Below are positions 11,029 to 21,467 of a stretch of DNA of 23,199 nucleotides, one piece after another. The notes beneath the pieces are model-generated. The model did not search any database. It saw only the letters and a list, made by a program, of their open reading frames with translations, and was not told the DNA's origin. Each line of letters begins with the position of its first letter. The stretch's first letter is position 1. Made by a program: the position numbers and the translations under genes. The stretch comes from a virus, in the IMG/VR virus record IMGVR_UViG_3300025687_000344, positions 1-23,199 of that record; one strand, given 5' to 3'.

Positions 11029-13346
11029 TGCAAAACAACATTTACATAATCGGTACAGATAAAACAGTTTTAGATTTAGGTATTACATCCGGTTATTATT
11101 ATATTAACCCGGTTAATCAATCTAGTAATTTTTATACTAGTTCGCTATTAAGTATGTCTTTTAATCCGAATGCTTCTTATTCTGAAAAGTTAGACTGTGG
11201 GTCATTTACAGATGATTATTTAAATTATAAAGTTACAACTAAACTAACTTACGAAGCAGGTAACCTTAATAAAGAATATAGTGAATTTTATTCTTTTAAT
11301 TTTATATTATCTGGTATAAATGATACAACTAATACAATATCAAAAATAGAATTTGAACCTGTTGATAATGAAATTATAGTAAAAAGTTTTGATAGTGATG
11401 TTACTTTTGATTCTTCTTATGTTTATAATACCTTGTTAGGTGATAAATTTAACAATCCTAAATATTTTACATATAATTATACATATAGTATTAACAATGG
11501 GCAATCCACTCAAACATTTACTCCTAAATTTTCAGCATATAGGAAAGATGGTTTAATTGATGAGTATATTTTATATGTAAATGTTAGTCAGGATAGTATT
11601 AATAGTTTAGCTGATGATATAAAACTTATTGATACACAAATTTTACCTATTTCATCTAATGATTGTTTATTTCAAGTTGAATTGAGTAATCCAAATTATG
11701 TTAATAATTTGGTTTTAAGAAGAAATATAACACCTACACCTACTAGGACAGTTACCCCATCACTTACCAAAAAAGCATCTCCTACAAGAACACAAACTCC
11801 TACAAACTCTAATACAAGAACTGTCACGCCTACAAAAACGCCATCAAGAACAGCTCGCCCTACGCCTTCACATACAAGGACTTGTACCCCTACTTTAACT
11901 CAGCAACCTACACCTTATATAACCCCTACACCCACACCTACGTTAACTAACACCCCTACATCAACTTTATTTAGAGTTCCAATTCCTATAGATGAACCAG
12001 ATTTACCGAATTTACCTTGTAACGGTCTAGATTATACAGCTAGAAGAATTAGATTATATTTTGATTTTACTTCTGATCAATTTGCTCCTGACACTATTTT
12101 TTCACATGATAAATCTTACTTTGCTATAAAAATAGGGGTAAAATATTCTTATGCAGGAGGTTCTTCTGAGCAGTATTATTTTAATGATTTAATTATATCA
12201 GATTTTTATCTTAATAGATTTTTTAGAGATTTACAAGTTAACGGTACAACAAGCAGAGTATATAGTGTAGATTTGTTTATACCTATAAACATGTCTGTAA
12301 AATATTTAACTCCTGTTTATTATTTTGATGATAATGTAATTTCAGACCCCGGTATCATATTTAAAAATAGTGAAGGGGAGATTGACCCTAATTATATTGA
12401 AGATTTTTTAAATTCCGATAATGTAGATTCTTTTAAATTTAATTGTTTTACCAGTACAGGTGACAAAAATAATTATACTCCAGGAGATCCTCCCGGTGGA
12501 GGTGATCCCGGTGGAGGTGGTCCCGGTGGAGGTGATCCCGGTGGAGGTGGTCCTGGTGGAGGTGGTCCCGGCCCCGGTATAATCATACCGGACCCAATAA
12601 TTCAAACAAAAGGTCAATATATAATATCTTTTCAATGGTCCTTAACTCAATATAGATTATATTGTAATTTTCCTAAAACTTCTGAAAATGAAGAATGGCT
12701 TAATATTGCTCCTACAGGAAGATTTCTTTCTACATTAACTGTTTATTTAGTAGAGGTGCCTTTAAATTATAATTTAAATGGTTATAAATTAACCGAAACG
12801 AGATATAATAATGGTAATCCATACACTTGGTATGCGAAATCTCCATATGACGTGTTTGATAATAACGGGGTAAACTTGAAAGTATTAGACGGCCCATATA
12901 CTGTTACTAAAGAACTTTTAAATGAAAAAATAGCTCCTGTAGAGGGTCAGGTAAATAAAGTAAGTACTAAAATGCTAAATGATATTTATTATAATAAAAT
13001 TTTTGATGGAAATAGAAGTATTAAAGTTTTTTATTATTGGAATCAAATTGCCCAACCTTATGGTGATGACGAAAAACGATATCAAGAATGGAAAGAAATG
13101 AATACTTCTGGTATAAATTATTGTTATGTTTTGTGGGATAATAATGAAGGTTCTAAACCTGATCCAGATTACCCTGATTTTAAAACTCTTCCTTCTTATT
13201 CTAGACCTTTTGTACAAATTAACGGTTTAATAGATTTTATCCCTATAGAAGTTTATGATAATAATAAACTATACGACGGCCAACCTATTTATAATTTAGA
13301 AGAATCTGCACATGCAACCCTCATATATAATTTTAAAAATGAATAG
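11028..13346 (+). CDS. Fibre-like protein with Thr-Pro linker and Gly-Pro-rich hinge
   Basis: This 772-residue protein is coupled to the preceding fibre-like gene by TAATG. The layout is an N-terminal beta-rich domain of about 230 residues, a Thr-Pro-rich linker (235-314), and a middle beta-rich domain. A Gly-Pro-Asp hinge follows at about residues 484-520, built from five 15-bp DNA repeats. The C-terminal domain (about 250 residues) includes several Trp and Tyr residues. No catalytic motif is recognised. The alternation of globular domains with extended or flexible linkers, and the shared Thr-Pro style with its neighbour, suggest both are parts of one tail-fibre or baseplate appendage. The gene's end overlaps the next ATG by 8 nt. 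Confidence 0.65.
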   Translation: MQNNIYIIGTDKTVLDLGITSGYYYINPVNQSSNFYTSSLLSMSFNPNASYSEKLDCGSFTDDYLNYKVTTKLTYEAGNLNKEYSEFYSFNFILSGINDTTNTISKIEFEPVDNEIIVKSFDSDVTFDSSYVYNTLLGDKFNNPKYFTYNYTYSINNGQSTQTFTPKFSAYRKDGLIDEYILYVNVSQDSINSLADDIKLIDTQILPISSNDCLFQVELSNPNYVNNLVLRRNITPTPTRTVTPSLTKKASPTRTQTPTNSNTRTVTPTKTPSRTARPTPSHTRTCTPTLTQQPTPYITPTPTPTLTNTPTSTLFRVPIPIDEPDLPNLPCNGLDYTARRIRLYFDFTSDQFAPDTIFSHDKSYFAIKIGVKYSYAGGSSEQYYFNDLIISDFYLNRFFRDLQVNGTTSRVYSVDLFIPINMSVKYLTPVYYFDDNVISDPGIIFKNSEGEIDPNYIEDFLNSDNVDSFKFNCFTSTGDKNNYTPGDPPGGGDPGGGGPGGGDPGGGGPGGGGPGPGIIIPDPIIQTKGQYIISFQWSLTQYRLYCNFPKTSENEEWLNIAPTGRFLSTLTVYLVEVPLNYNLNGYKLTETRYNNGNPYTWYAKSPYDVFDNNGVNLKVLDGPYTVTKELLNEKIAPVEGQVNKVSTKMLNDIYYNKIFDGNRSIKVFYYWNQIAQPYGDDEKRYQEWKEMNTSGINYCYVLWDNNEGSKPDPDYPDFKTLPSYSRPFVQINGLIDFIPIEVYDNNKLYDGQPIYNLEESAHATLIYNFKNE
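11730..11969 (+). repeat. Thr-Pro-rich coding segment in the 772-residue protein
   Basis: This stretch encodes residues 235-314, rich in TPT, TPS and TRT units. Unlike the segments in the neighbouring gene it carries many Arg and Lys residues (TRTVTPTKTPSRTARP), so this linker is positively charged. Confidence 0.75.
12495..12569 (+). repeat. Five tandem 15-bp units encoding GGGDP/GGGGP
   Basis: The unit GGTGGAGGTGATCCC alternates with a one-base variant (GGTCCC, giving GGGGP); the fourth unit ends in CCT. It is a GC-rich minisatellite in an otherwise AT-rich operon and encodes a flexible hinge. Unit number could vary by slippage. Confidence 0.85.
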
Positions 13347-15623: not shown

Positions 15624-15646
15624 CGTTTGTTGTTTGTGTATATAAT
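15620..15646 (+). promoter_or_regulatory. Sigma70-like promoter before the 89-residue gene
   Basis: TTGACG, a 15-bp spacer and TATAAT, with the -10 box ending 8 nt before the ATG at 15655. Transcription would start about 2 nt before the start codon. The spacer lacks the GGA-TCC motif seen in the next two promoters. Confidence 0.7.
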
Positions 15647-15654
15647 ATACGTAT

Positions 15655-15927: not shown

Positions 15928-15956
15928 TTGATTAATATTCGGAACGTCCCTATTAT
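15928..15956 (+). promoter_or_regulatory. Sigma70-like promoter with operator-like inverted repeat
   Basis: TTGATT, 17 bp, TATTAT. The -10 box is 7 nt before the ATG at 15964. The 11 nt abutting the -10 box are CGGAACGTCCC (15940-15950), an inverted repeat GGA-N3-TCC also found before the DUF932 and ArfA-like genes. Confidence 0.7.
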
Positions 15957-15963
15957 CTATCGT

Positions 15964-16212
15964 ATGAAATGCAATACTTGTTCTAATGATGTTGAGCAAC
16001 CTAGAGTTGAGTTCGGAATGAAAACCTGTAAGGCTTGTGCGTTTAGAGGTAGGGACGTTGCTCGTTATAAAGGGGTTATGAATTGGTCTCATAAGACCGC
16101 CCCTGTTATCCAAGTAATGTCAAGCGATTGTTTTGACGAACAAAAAAAATATTACGTTCCGCGAGGAGCAAGAAGTTCTGTCAAAAATTTTAGCAAGCAC
16201 GTATGTGCTTAA
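15964..16212 (+). CDS. Zinc-ribbon protein, 82 residues
   Basis: A small protein with paired Cys motifs, CNTC (3-6) and CKAC (22-25), that should bind one zinc ion. It is followed by a conserved-looking segment, GVMNWSHKTAPVIQVMS (37-53). I recall similar small proteins in T4-like marine phages, but their function is unknown to me. The fold suggests nucleic-acid or protein binding. The start is the ATG at 15964. The frame is open further upstream, but only with a TTG at 15928 that is part of the -35 box. The promoter's expected +1 falls at this ATG. Confidence 0.75.
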   Translation: MKCNTCSNDVEQPRVEFGMKTCKACAFRGRDVARYKGVMNWSHKTAPVIQVMSSDCFDEQKKYYVPRGARSSVKNFSKHVCA

Positions 16213-16222
16213 TTTTTTTGTG

Positions 16223-16250
16223 TTGATAAAGTACGGAGTGTCCATATAAT
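16223..16250 (+). promoter_or_regulatory. Sigma70-like promoter of the DUF932 gene with operator-like repeat
   Basis: TTGATA, 16 bp, TATAAT, ending 6 nt before the ATG at 16257, so +1 is predicted at the start codon. CGGAGTGTCCA (16234-16244) abuts the -10 box and contains GGA-N3-TCC. Confidence 0.8.
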
Positions 16251-16256
16251 AATTTT

Positions 16257-17240
16257 ATGTTAATTGATAATAGCTTAGTCAGCCTAGACAAATTGGTCGG
16301 AAATAAAATCGAAGGTTCTTCTATCAACGATGTAATGGATGCTGGAGGTTTTAATTTTGAAGTAGTAGAAGAAAATCTTGGAAATGATGTTCAAGGAGCA
16401 GATAATTGGAAGGTGCTCCGAAGAGGCGAAGGAGGAGATGTAATTAATGTTGTGCGTGATACATATCAGGTCATTCAGAATAGAGAGATTCTAGAGCCAT
16501 TTGATGAAGTTCGTCGTCAGTTCAAAGCAGAATGGTCTCAGTGCGGTGTTATTGGCAAAGGTAATAACATCTGGGTTAGTGCAAAGCTACCTGAAGAGCT
16601 GCAGCTTAAGAGCAATAGCCAAGATAAACTTTGCGGTTATATCATGGCCATTCTTAATCATGATGGTACAAGAGCAGATGCGGTCTTTCCATATGTTGAT
16701 AGATTGTTTTGTAACAATCAGTTTAATACTGTAGCTAGATCAGCAAGAGGTATGACTATTATGCACCGTTCTAATTATGAACAACGTATTAATGTATTGA
16801 TGAATAGTTTTAAGAAAGGTATCGAAAAGAATATTGAATTTGTTAATACCGCTGATGCTTTAGACTCACAGAAGATCTCTCGAGAAGAGCTAGAGAAGGT
16901 AGTCAGCCGATTGTTTCCAGATAAGAAGGTTCGTAACAAAGGAGAAGAAGTACTCCTATCAGGAGAGACGTCAAGGAATCGAGTCATTGAGCTGTTCTCT
17001 AACGGCGCAGGAAACAAAGGAGAAACTCGTTGGGATGCTTTCAATGCTGTTACTGAGTATATCGATCATCATCAGGGAGCAAAGCGGATAAACAATGCAA
17101 TCTTACGTGACGGTCAGAGCGTGCTAGCATCAGATAGGATGCGCAGAGGGTTTGAGCGACGATTCATGAATAATATGGTTGGCGGTCAAAGCAACAATCT
17201 AAAACATTCAGCCTTGAAACTGCTTAGCGGTAAGCTATAA
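16257..17240 (+). CDS. DUF932 family protein (phage/plasmid-type), 327 residues
   Basis: The sequence fits the DUF932 / TIGR03299 phage-plasmid-like family. It has WKVLRR, then VVRDTYQVIQNREILEPFDEV (about residues 65-85), a central beta region with GNNIWVSAKLP, and NHDGTRADAVFPYVDRLFCNNQF (134-156), followed by a long helical half. Length is typical. Family members occur widely on phages and plasmids; their molecular role is not established. It has its own strong leaderless-type promoter, and its last codons contain the promoter of the GIY-YIG gene. CGT/CGA Arg codons are frequent, as in other early-type genes here. Confidence 0.85.
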   Translation: MLIDNSLVSLDKLVGNKIEGSSINDVMDAGGFNFEVVEENLGNDVQGADNWKVLRRGEGGDVINVVRDTYQVIQNREILEPFDEVRRQFKAEWSQCGVIGKGNNIWVSAKLPEELQLKSNSQDKLCGYIMAILNHDGTRADAVFPYVDRLFCNNQFNTVARSARGMTIMHRSNYEQRINVLMNSFKKGIEKNIEFVNTADALDSQKISREELEKVVSRLFPDKKVRNKGEEVLLSGETSRNRVIELFSNGAGNKGETRWDAFNAVTEYIDHHQGAKRINNAILRDGQSVLASDRMRRGFERRFMNNMVGGQSNNLKHSALKLLSGKL

Positions 17241-17241
17241 T
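17214..17241 (+). promoter_or_regulatory. Sigma70-like promoter of the GIY-YIG gene, inside the DUF932 3' end
   Basis: TTGAAA, 16 bp, TATAAT, ending 6 nt before the ATG at 17248. The spacer holds a perfect inverted repeat GCTTA-GCGG-TAAGC (17222-17235) abutting the -10 box, which could be an operator or RNA hairpin. The whole element overlaps the last DUF932 codons. Confidence 0.7.
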
Positions 17242-17247
17242 AGTTAC

Positions 17248-17712
17248 ATGATCGAAAAACGATATATAAGCGGGCTGCTCTTTGAGAGAGCAGCTCATTT
17301 CTATAAAGATGATCATAATCATCTTAAAGTAAGAGTATTTGAGCGATATAAAGAACAAACTCATCTGATATATGCTCATTACTTTGATGATAAGCTTCTT
17401 TATATTGGAGAGAGTTCAGTACATTTTATTAAACGAATGAAATGTTATTGTAGCCATCCTGGAGCAGCTAACGTGCGGGTAAGAGATTATGTTAATAGTA
17501 TCTTTCATGGTAATCATCGCGACCCTGATCTATGTACGTTTGTTCATATACCTAAAAAGAAGCTAGTTATTAATGAAGAGTTATCAATTAATCCATATGT
17601 CGCTATAGAGCAAGAATTGATAAATATTCATAAGCCAGTATTGAATAGAAAAAATGTCCACAGAAAAAAGAACATCTCTAATAGAGGACGGTATGAGTAT
17701 AAATCCTATTAA
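17248..17712 (+). CDS. GIY-YIG-like endonuclease, 154 residues
   Basis: The GIY-YIG fold is suggested by IYAHY (41-45) in place of the first motif, YIG at 52-54, the helix IKRMKCY with likely catalytic Arg63, and IEQELINIHKPVLNRKN (120-136). That last segment holds the catalytic Glu (121 or 123) and the family's terminal pattern. The first motif is degenerate (no Gly-Ile-Tyr). The protein lacks the long DNA-binding tail of typical homing enzymes but has a basic C-terminus (NVHRKKNISNRGRYEYKSY). It could be a free-standing homing endonuclease, a host-DNA nuclease or a repair nuclease. It is driven by a leaderless-type promoter and overlaps the next small gene. Confidence 0.72.
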   Translation: MIEKRYISGLLFERAAHFYKDDHNHLKVRVFERYKEQTHLIYAHYFDDKLLYIGESSVHFIKRMKCYCSHPGAANVRVRDYVNSIFHGNHRDPDLCTFVHIPKKKLVINEELSINPYVAIEQELINIHKPVLNRKNVHRKKNISNRGRYEYKSY

Positions 17713-17866
17713 ATTATACGATTGGTTAAATAGGCAAATTATTCTTAGAAGGCCTACTATGGACGATTATGATGCAGGGTTTACTGATTGTTTAATTGCT
17801 ATAAAAGAACAATTAGAATGTGAAATAAACCATAGTAAACATTATAACGGAAAATCAGATACCTAA
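17693..17866 (+). CDS. Unrecognised 57-residue protein
   Basis: The ATG at 17693 is preferred. It is preceded by AGAGGA about 6 nt upstream, one of the very few Shine-Dalgarno-like sequences in the window, and overlaps the nuclease gene by 20 nt. An in-frame ATG at 17654 would add 13 residues and a 59-nt overlap. The peptide is helical with aromatic and acidic residues (RRPTMDDYDAGFTDCLIAIKEQLECE). Its stop region overlaps the convergent gene by 12 nt. The function is unknown. Confidence 0.6.
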   Translation: MSINPIKLYDWLNRQIILRRPTMDDYDAGFTDCLIAIKEQLECEINHSKHYNGKSDT

Positions 17867-18664
17867 ATTTTGTCGTAAAGTATTTTCGTTATCTTCTTTA
17901 CCACACACTTGATTATGATAATCTAATATATTTAAAGGCGGGTGACCATGTATTAATCTACAAAATTTAGCAAATTTAAACTTTGGGTTAACATTATGTT
18001 GAATCATACCTGCATGAACTGCTGACATAGTAAAAAATACATTTTCTTGAAATGTACCGCAGTTAGTTTCAACGCATTTTTTACTAAATTTTTCCCAGTA
18101 ATCTAACATAACTTTTAACTTATCATTGTTTTTAAAAACAATTCTAGTTTCAGCTGGGAGGGTTGCTAATAATAATTTATCGTAAATTAAATCACCCATC
18201 TTCTCTATTTTTTGTTTCATTGCAGTGTATAAATTATTATTCATTTTATTTTTTATACAATGTTCAGGGTGATATTGTAAATACCAAACGTCAAATTTTT
18301 CAGAAAGCATGCTAGCAAAACTTTCTTGATCCCAACCATTATAAAAACAATCACAATCATTAAAATTAATAACATCATAGTCCATTTCAGAACACAATTT
18401 AATAGGTAATCTTTTTATTCCAAAATTGAATTGGTTACATATTTTTAATGGTTCATCAGGAAAAGTGGTTTTTAAATCTTTAATTATTACTCTTTTGTTA
18501 TTTTCGTGTTTTTTAAATGCCTCTGGTACATTTGTAACCATTAGTACATCAAAAGGTGTAAATTTAATTGCACTGTCTATTAATATATTTGCCCTTTGTT
18601 GGTACATATTTTCATGACCATATTTTAACCCATCTATGCACAAACTAGCTATAACTGATTTCAT
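17855..18664 (-). CDS. Possible glycosyltransferase (GT-A-like), 269 residues
   Basis: The protein begins with a Rossmann-like strand-helix, MKSVIASLCI, followed by a helix and VLMVTN (40-45), as in nucleotide-sugar transferases. NFNDCDCFYNG (100-110) resembles the DxD-type metal/nucleotide-sugar motif of GT-A enzymes at the expected depth. Later segments (FQENVFFTMSAVH, HGHPP) resemble acceptor-side regions of such enzymes. No specific family is proven. A late octamer AATAAATA lies 6 nt before the ATG, so it is probably a late gene. That would suit modification of virion proteins, in line with the sulfotransferase gene nearby. A non-enzymatic GT-like relative is possible. Confidence 0.5.
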   Translation of the reverse strand: MKSVIASLCIDGLKYGHENMYQQRANILIDSAIKFTPFDVLMVTNVPEAFKKHENNKRVIIKDLKTTFPDEPLKICNQFNFGIKRLPIKLCSEMDYDVINFNDCDCFYNGWDQESFASMLSEKFDVWYLQYHPEHCIKNKMNNNLYTAMKQKIEKMGDLIYDKLLLATLPAETRIVFKNNDKLKVMLDYWEKFSKKCVETNCGTFQENVFFTMSAVHAGMIQHNVNPKFKFAKFCRLIHGHPPLNILDYHNQVCGKEDNENTLRQNLGI

Positions 18665-18670
18665 TTATTT

Positions 18671-18678
18671 TATTTATT
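18671..18678 (-). promoter_or_regulatory. Late promoter octamer of the GT-like gene
   Basis: AATAAATA on the minus strand, 6 nt before the ATG at 18664. It is divergent from the ArfA-like promoter, whose -35 box begins 10 bp away. Confidence 0.55.
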
Positions 18679-18687
18679 AAATTTTAT

Positions 18688-18717
18688 TTGGAATCAAAAT
18701 CGGAACTATCCTATAAT
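18688..18717 (+). promoter_or_regulatory. Sigma70-like promoter of the ArfA-like gene with operator-like repeat
   Basis: TTGGAA, 18 bp, TATAAT. CGGAACTATCC (18701-18711) abuts the -10 box and contains GGA-N4-TCC, a variant of the motif before the zinc-ribbon and DUF932 genes. Expected +1 is about 18724, next to GTG at 18725 and ATG at 18728. Confidence 0.7.
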
Positions 18718-18727
18718 TATTATTGTG

Positions 18728-18862
18728 ATGAGAAAAGAAAATAAACCAAGATTTTTTATTCCTTGGAATACTGGACAGAGAGTATTCAAGCCAAAAAAAG
18801 GAAAAGGAAGTTATTCTAGGAGGAATAAAAATTACTCCTCCTATAGTATTCCAGTGGAGTAG
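18728..18862 (+). CDS. ArfA-like ribosome-rescue factor, 44 residues
   Basis: This very basic small protein carries QRVFKPKKGKGSYSRR (residues 17-32). From memory, E. coli ArfA has QRVEKNKKGKGSYMRK, so 12 of these 16 positions match. In ArfA the KGKGSY tail enters the empty mRNA channel of ribosomes stalled on nonstop mRNA, and the preceding part recruits RF2. Here the part before QRV is about 9 residues shorter than in E. coli and differs (FFIPWNTG), so RF2 recruitment is uncertain. Codons 29-40, just after KGKGSY, form a strong hairpin. In bacterial arfA, cleavage or termination at such a hairpin makes a truncated but active protein. Tandem AGG AGG codons (31-32) lie in the stem. GTG at 18725 is an alternative in-frame start. 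It lies just upstream of the RadA-like gene. Confidence 0.75.
   Translation: MRKENKPRFFIPWNTGQRVFKPKKGKGSYSRRNKNYSSYSIPVE
18812..18848 (+). promoter_or_regulatory. Hairpin inside the ArfA-like coding sequence
   Basis: TAGGAGGA (18817-18824) pairs perfectly with TCCTCCTA (18836-18843) around an 11-nt loop. Past one mismatch, four more outer pairs (18812-18815 with 18845-18848, one of them G-T) extend the stem. Three inner pairs can also form across an A-C mismatch. No T-run follows, so it is not a classical intrinsic terminator and better resembles an RNase III-type or stalling structure. It starts at codon 29, the Tyr of KGKGSY. Confidence 0.75.
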
Positions 18863-18877
18863 GATTAGGAAGTAGCA

Positions 18878-18883
18878 TATAAT
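18878..18883 (+). promoter_or_regulatory. -10 element of the RadA-like gene
   Basis: TATAAT ends 6 nt before the ATG at 18890, the same spacing as at 16257, 17248 and 21468. No convincing -35 box lies 16-18 bp upstream, so the promoter may need an activator or be weaker. Readthrough from the ArfA-like promoter is also possible. Confidence 0.55.
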
Positions 18884-18889
18884 CATTGT

Positions 18890-19795
18890 ATGTTGGAATT
18901 AAATTTTAATCAGACCGATCTTTTATCTGTAGAGAATATCGAGATACCAGAGCGCTTCTACAGGCGTATGATGACTGGCATCGAAACAGTAGACGAATTT
19001 CTTCATGAAGGCTTCTTACCTGGTTCAACTATGACTTTGACAGCTGCAGCTGGCTGTGGTAAGACTACATTCATGATACAATTACTAGAAGGTCTTACAA
19101 AGAACGGATACAGCGTTGGATATTGCTCAGGCGAAGAGAATATCTATCAGCTGGCTATGACTTGTAGACGTTTGCAATGTACTAAGCTTCAGATTGCTAA
19201 TAAGACTGATGTAGATGAGATTGTCAATCTTACAAAGACAAATGACTTTCTAGTTATTGATAGTTTTCAAGCTTTGACTACTAGCAAGAAGATGAACAGC
19301 TTAGAGAAAGAACGATATGCATTGATGAAGCTAGTCAAAGCTGCTCAAGAGAATGAATGCTGCGTTTGTTTCATTATGCATCTTACTAAGGCAGGTAAGC
19401 TGAAAGGCACTACGCTTGTTCCTCATACCGTCGATGCTAATCTCAACATCATGATTGATGCTGAAGTTGATGATCAAGCAAGACGTATTTGGTTTTCAAA
19501 GAACAGATTTGGACCTACTAATGAATTGACTCTTATGATGACTCATTCAGGCTATGATATGTATAGTAAGGTTGTAGCTAAAGAGAACAAATATGTAAGC
19601 AAGAAGAATCAGAAAGAAGCTATCAAATCTGACCTTCGTAATGCATTAGACGGAGTCGTTAAAGTAGATCAAATTATACAAAAATACAACGTAAGTATTG
19701 TATATGCTAACTCTGCTTTAAGAGAGTTAGTTGCTGAAGGCTCGTTTAAAAAGATAGGAAGAGGTTCAAACGCTTATTGGCATAAACAAAATTAG
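18890..19795 (+). CDS. RadA/Sms-like RecA-fold ATPase with C-terminal winged helix
   Basis: This 301-residue ATPase probably acts in recombination or branch migration. TGIETVDEFL (29-38) precedes the P-loop AAAGCGKTT (52-60). A YCSGEE segment (78-83) follows, with Walker B FLVIDSFQ (120-127) and a DNA-loop region with HLTKAGKLKGTT. KNRFGPTNELTL (204-215) contains the KNRFG motif diagnostic of RadA/Sms. The N-terminal zinc finger and the C-terminal Lon-protease-like domain of bacterial RadA are both missing. Instead, residues about 245-300 look like a winged-helix DNA-binding domain (VDQIIQKYNVSIVYANSALRELVAEGSF). It could be the phage's recombination ATPase or a RadA-type helper. The stop overlaps the convergent sulfotransferase stop by 4 bp. 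Confidence 0.82.
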   Translation: MLELNFNQTDLLSVENIEIPERFYRRMMTGIETVDEFLHEGFLPGSTMTLTAAAGCGKTTFMIQLLEGLTKNGYSVGYCSGEENIYQLAMTCRRLQCTKLQIANKTDVDEIVNLTKTNDFLVIDSFQALTTSKKMNSLEKERYALMKLVKAAQENECCVCFIMHLTKAGKLKGTTLVPHTVDANLNIMIDAEVDDQARRIWFSKNRFGPTNELTLMMTHSGYDMYSKVVAKENKYVSKKNQKEAIKSDLRNALDGVVKVDQIIQKYNVSIVYANSALRELVAEGSFKKIGRGSNAYWHKQN

Positions 19796-21435: not shown

Positions 21436-21461
21436 GATATTTTAAAGATATTTTGTATAAT
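21434..21461 (+). promoter_or_regulatory. Sigma70-like promoter of the phosphatase-like gene
   Basis: TTGATA, 16 bp, TATAAT, ending 6 nt before the ATG at 21468. This geometry is identical to the DUF932 promoter and fixes the start codon at 21468. Confidence 0.75.
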
Positions 21462-21467
21462 TTACTT

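Follow-up and report, generated by a model that had tools for sequence, protein, structure and literature searches.

An asymmetric GGAAC-type word in the promoter spacer as a candidate element of early or middle genes in T4-like phages

A group of T4-like phages probably marks the sigma70-type promoters of its early or middle genes with one asymmetric, orientation-fixed and phage-specific element, which would be read by the polymerase alone or together with a phage factor. The consensus of the element is RGGAAC. It keeps a fixed distance to the -10 box within the spacers of sigma70-type promoters that are normal in other respects (TTGA, 16–18 nt, TATAAT), and it would mark phage genes outside the virion-structure block. 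Sequence comparison places its conserved part, the asymmetric core RGGAA(C), about 11 nt upstream of the -10 hexamer, at roughly -23 to -18. The position and orientation of the word are fixed, it is conserved across diverged phages amid changing surroundings, and it is enriched over controls.

The analysis started from a 23,199-base IMG/VR virus record (the window), which is probably a fragment. The first-pass annotation had described three 11-nt sites, CGGAACGTCCC (15940–15950), CGGAGTGTCCA (16234–16244) and CGGAACTATCC (18701–18711), as a shared inverted repeat abutting the -10 boxes TATTAT at 15951, TATAAT at 16245 and TATAAT at 18712. All three were found in place, and each literally contains GGA-N3/4-TCC. 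A fourth site that it had not listed, AGGAAGTAGCA-TATAAT (18867–18883), precedes the KaiC/RecA-like gene. The features of the window are as follows.

15641–15654, + strand: -10 TATAAT and leaderless-type promoter of an 89-aa ORF (ATG 15655), spacer without the element
15928–15963, + strand: promoter of the zinc-ribbon gene; -35 TTGATT (15928–15933), element CGGAAC (15940–15945), -10 TATTAT (15951–15956)
15964, + strand: ATG start of the zinc-ribbon gene, 7 nt past the -10
15964–16212, + strand: zinc-ribbon-like ORF, 82 aa
16223–16256, + strand: promoter of the DUF932 gene; -35 TTGATA (16223–16228), element CGGAGT (16234–16239), -10 TATAAT (16245–16250)
16257, + strand: ATG start of the DUF932 gene, 6 nt past the -10
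16257–17240, + strand: DUF932 protein (PF06067, 1.2e-33)
17236–17247, + strand: -10 TATAAT and leaderless-type promoter of a GIY-YIG-like endonuclease gene (ATG 17248), spacer without GGA at the fixed offset
18688–18727, + strand: promoter of the ArfA-like gene; -35 TTGGAA (18688–18693), element CGGAAC (18701–18706), -10 TATAAT (18712–18717)
18725 and 18728, + strand: GTG and ATG starts of the ArfA-like gene
18725–18862, + strand: ArfA-like ORF (PF03889, 26.3 bits, cut-off 25.5)
18855–18889, + strand: promoter of the KaiC/RecA-like ATPase gene; -35-like TGGAGT (18855–18860), element AGGAAG (18867–18872), -10 TATAAT (18878–18883)
18890, + strand: ATG start of the KaiC/RecA-like ATPase gene, 6 nt past the -10
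18890–19795, + strand: KaiC/RecA-like ATPase (PF06745)
21456–21467, + strand: -10 TATAAT, 6 nt 5' of ATG 21468, spacer without GGA

The 82-aa zinc-ribbon-like ORF gave no Pfam or PHROG match. Each of the three promoters first described has a -35-like hexamer 16–18 nt upstream of the -10 box, and the general features are those of sigma70-type promoters (a TTGA-like -35, 16–18 nt spacing, TATAAT), with weaker -35 hexamers at the KaiC and arfA sites. Seven window promoters have a -10 box just 5' of a start codon, and in four of them GGA begins at exactly 10 nt from that box (p ~6e-5, 50,000 shufflings of the spacer letters). Counted anywhere in the window, the inverted repeat GGAN4TCC shows no enrichment (1 found, 2.0 expected); the signal there is position inside a promoter, not frequency of the repeat. 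The spacer element was not seen in the structural block, at 1–15 kb.

Related viral contigs were gathered with the DUF932 and KaiC-like proteins as queries. Megablast of 4.2 kb against phages gave no match. The relatives were treated as clade A (the window and G001–G004; KaiC 82–92% identical where present), clade B (G005 and G006; KaiC ~66% identical) and the most diverged group C (G008–G010; KaiC 62–65% identical); L031/G011, with a KaiC 48% identical, was compared as well. G004 encodes a phrog_213 portal and a gp44-type clamp loader (phrog_168), and the window encodes a baseplate wedge protein, which together indicate that the source phages are T4-like myoviruses. The KaiC promoter has GGAA 9–10 nt before the -10 in every one of the nine compared phages with the KaiC gene (62–92% protein identity to the window); the words are AGGAAG, GGGAAG, AGGAAC, AGGAAC, CGGAAA, CGGAAA, AGGAAC, AGGAAC and AGGAAC. 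The distance from this -10 to the start codon is 6–13 nt in clade A as against 17–22 nt in B and C, and the remaining region has diverged. The zinc-ribbon promoter is kept in the G004 ortholog as TTCGGAACGTCCC-TATCAT, with GAGCGTCCC in G001 and G002; the DUF932 orthologs read CGGAGTGTCCC in G003 and G004 and GGGAGAGTCC in G001 and G002, with GGAG kept in all five clade A members. A shared promoter-embedded signal, as first proposed, is thus supported, and it is kept in related phages. Its variants are CGGAAC or CGGAGT in the clade of the window, GGGAAC in group C and GGAAA in some others. In G005 (locus L026), the exact word CCGGATAGCCGCTATAAT is common to two promoters, with -10 boxes at 12771 and 15270. 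In L031/G011, promoters with an AGTTGCC -35, which do not have the element, take the place of the element-bearing class; this 146.8-kb record has a uniform, different promoter class, TAGTTGCC-N-TATAAT, with 17-nt spacing and mostly directly 5' of start codons.

Group C also bears on whether the site is an inverted repeat. GGGAAC, counted on both strands, lies 10–11 nt upstream of a -10-like box in 31 of 38 occurrences, and its reverse complement GTTCCC does so in 0 of 38; control hexamers also gave 0. Exact TTGA-N7-9-GGGAAC-N5-TATAAT promoters number 11, 8 and 10 in 36, 15 and 39 kb, and the reversed pattern has no match in this group. Offset 10 is occupied by GGA in 25 of 41 promoters from group C and in 6 of 24 from clade A (permutation means 0.87 and 0.27, respectively; 0 of 20,000 shuffles reach the observed values), and the best-conserved spacer base is G at offset 9 (36/41 and 18/24, respectively). 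A full GGA at the fixed offset is missing from the majority of the leaderless promoters in clade A, and from three of seven in the window. The second arm behaves differently: TCC at offset 4 occurs in only 2 of 41 group C promoters, as against 6 of 24 in clade A. These group C counts, together with the single orientation, point to an asymmetric word as the conserved unit, and the TCC arm is largely limited to three sets of orthologs within the clade of the window. The description as an inverted repeat was not upheld.

An operator, in which a dimeric phage or host repressor or activator binds GGA-N3/4-TCC in the spacer, had been among the first suggestions, and GGA...TCC does occur in the three window sites, in several of their clade A orthologs and in the arfA promoter of G010 (CGGATCTCTCC). 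However, TCC is missing from eight of nine KaiC promoters (the exception is G006), 39 of the 41 group C promoters do not have it at the fixed offset, the site is never reversed, and its position is locked to the -10, whereas operators can vary in position. With the second arm not conserved and both orientation and position fixed, we regard an operator as quite unlikely. The extended recognition element, another option of the first-pass annotation, fits best.

Chance likeness combined with shared ancestry of a few upstream regions, without function, was weighed as well, since the clade A orthologs are closely related and their counts are not independent. The permutation and orientation controls contradict this explanation, which is highly improbable: in group C, GGGAAC recurs at one offset in the promoters of different genes, and the reverse count is zero. 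A strict pattern, with a start codon required 6–9 nt downstream, was also scanned over 2.9 million viral contigs and gave 65 stretches; with the hexamer reversed the count was 7, and with the word moved two positions it was 9. Much of this excess is owed to group C and to two near-clonal families, and the latter supply most of the matches outside group C; a relative of pelagiphage HTVC027P is among the contigs of one family. The pattern TTGA-N8-10-GGA-N7-TATAAT had 55 matches in 15 of 17 phage records and none when reversed. With this looser pattern, copies outside the seeds, all of them GGAA, were found in T4-like records: three in G014 (105 kb), five in G015 (225 kb) and one in G016 (93 kb).

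The phages could instead exploit a spacer preference of host sigma70, comparable to the -17/-18 Z-element, with no phage factor and no phage-specific system. The -35 and -10 boxes are near consensus, and GGGAACTATCC-TATAAT occurs as a single conserved promoter in contigs including L104, which is related to HTVC027P; this suggests host recognition common to unrelated phages. Against this, 384 alphaproteobacterial genomes besides the seed gave no match, and HTVC008M has, within its first 50 kb, promoters with other spacers, in which the element was not found. The zero in the alphaproteobacteria equals chance level (expectation below 1, no enrichment), so the comparison shows enrichment in phages rather than absence from the host. 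The word at -23 to -18 also lies upstream of the known Z-element (PMC5101437). On balance, a host preference by itself seems unlikely.

Other searches added little. In a scan of genome contigs, the matches listed were mostly single Firmicutes matches and uninformative. Short-query BLAST of the consensus against phage isolates returned weak chance matches only; the aligned piece in Vibrio phi 3 is without TATAAT, and the match in Synechococcus S-MbCM6 lies where genes are annotated on the other strand. The word is absent at the matching place in HTVC027P itself. A near-identical promoter, TTGACAATTTAAGGGAACTATCCTATAATGTCAAGAATG, stands 5' of a small ORF in L104, L096, L130 and about 20 other contigs; the ORF has 63 aa in L096 and L130, and L104 is related to HTVC027P. 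A literature search on GGGAAC/TATAAT phage promoters and on leaderless phage early promoters with a spacer element gave no match. A possible likeness of the spacers to those of the E. coli rrn P1 promoters was considered and dropped.

The preferred reading, a phage-specific element in sigma70-type promoters, was compared with known systems. The early promoters of T4, also described for RB49, RB43, Aeh1, 44RR and RB69, are likewise many sigma70-type promoters before conserved early genes and novel ORFs, and their consensus comprises GTTTAC at -36 to -31, a UP-like A-tract and, immediately upstream of -12, a GT-rich stretch; that description includes no GGAAC spacer element (PMC1524935), and here TATAAT is usually 6–7 nt from the start codon. 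The column composition in the present set gives TTGA, with no GT-rich stretch before -12. T4 middle promoters resemble it in having a phage-specific asymmetric word at a fixed distance from the -10, but in them the -35 gives way to the Mot box GCTT, at -30 to -27 (PMC1524935), whereas here the word lies at about -23 to -18 and the -35 TTGA is retained in most promoters. Matches to the MotA and AsiA families were found in none of 11 records, which are fragments and were searched without a positive control. The Z-element (-18/-17) and the extended -10 (-15/-14) also provide extra recognition within the spacer (PMC5101437), but the phage word lies upstream of both, and its promoters show no conserved TGn, with G at -2 from the -10 box in 4 of 24 and 3 of 41 promoters. 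MotA is missing from several T4-like phages (PMC1524935), which raises the question of how such phages mark their early or middle genes.

As for mechanism, the element may raise or license transcription by the host sigma70 polymerase, through contact made either directly by the polymerase or via a small phage-encoded factor reading -23 to -18. The fixed distance to the -10, the variable distance to the -35, the single orientation and the lack of a second arm suggest polymerase-coupled recognition rather than a free-standing dimer site. A bolder version, in which this T4-like group has its own transcription-appropriation system, with a putative phage protein that reads GGAAC as a half-site (about -23 to -18), the -35 kept and mostly leaderless mRNAs, is tentative and somewhat unlikely. 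The marked genes would be early or middle ones, as suggested by the downstream genes (DUF932, KaiC-like, ArfA-like and small ORFs) and by the absence of the element from the window's structural block. In other contigs, ssDNA-binding-protein-like and helicase-like ORFs were seen by eye downstream of it.

The mRNAs made from these promoters may be leaderless or nearly so. In seven records, an exact TATAAT is followed by the ATG of a frame of 60 or more aa at 6, 7 and 8 nt in 15, 8 and 6 cases, as against about one occurrence at most other distances, and in clade A the start codon lies 6 or 7 nt past the -10 in 22 of 24 promoters. With transcription starting about 7 nt past the -10, the start codon would be at or next to the predicted 5' end of the mRNA, which predicts leaderless or nearly leaderless mRNAs for most element promoters. 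By position, the promoters agree with the signature used for leaderless bacterial genes (PMC3160421), in which the -10 box precedes the start codon by about 12 nt. The likeness is to the TA-led leaderless genes, with TATAAT at that distance and a short or absent 5' UTR; those were described for bacterial genomes (PMC3160421), whereas the present set is from T4-like phages and has an added spacer element. Leaderless expression is predicted for many genes in this T4-like group, with TATAAT 6–8 nt before the start at 15641, 16245, 17236, 18878 and 21456 in the window and also in relatives.

The near-restriction of the word to promoters in group C makes it accessible to reporter assays and an aid to promoter annotation in uncultured phages, and the element points to a reader that belongs either to the polymerase or to the phage. 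A second testable point is that a large set of phage genes is predicted to be expressed from leaderless mRNAs.

The ArfA-like gene belongs to this promoter set in four phages, with the words CGGAAC (window), CGGAGT (G004), AGGAAC (G008) and CGGATC (G010); the ortholog promoters are CGGAGTATCC-TATAAT in G004, AGGAACGAACC-TATCAT in G008 and CGGATCTCTCC-TATAAT in G010. The gene had been tentatively tied to an early regulon: its membership in the set held, also for these orthologs, while "early" comes from gene content only. E. coli arfA has an in-ORF terminator/RNase III stem-loop that gives a non-stop mRNA (PMC10107115, PMC8012679). The phage ORF carries a hairpin that matches this arrangement, so the phage may keep tmRNA-controlled ArfA rescue. 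The hairpin, TAGGAGGA...TCCTCCTA, lies in the 3' coding part in the window and in the G003, G004 and G010 orthologs; its first pair is T-A in the window, G-C in G003 and C-G in G004, and it is followed by T-rich runs in G003 and G010.
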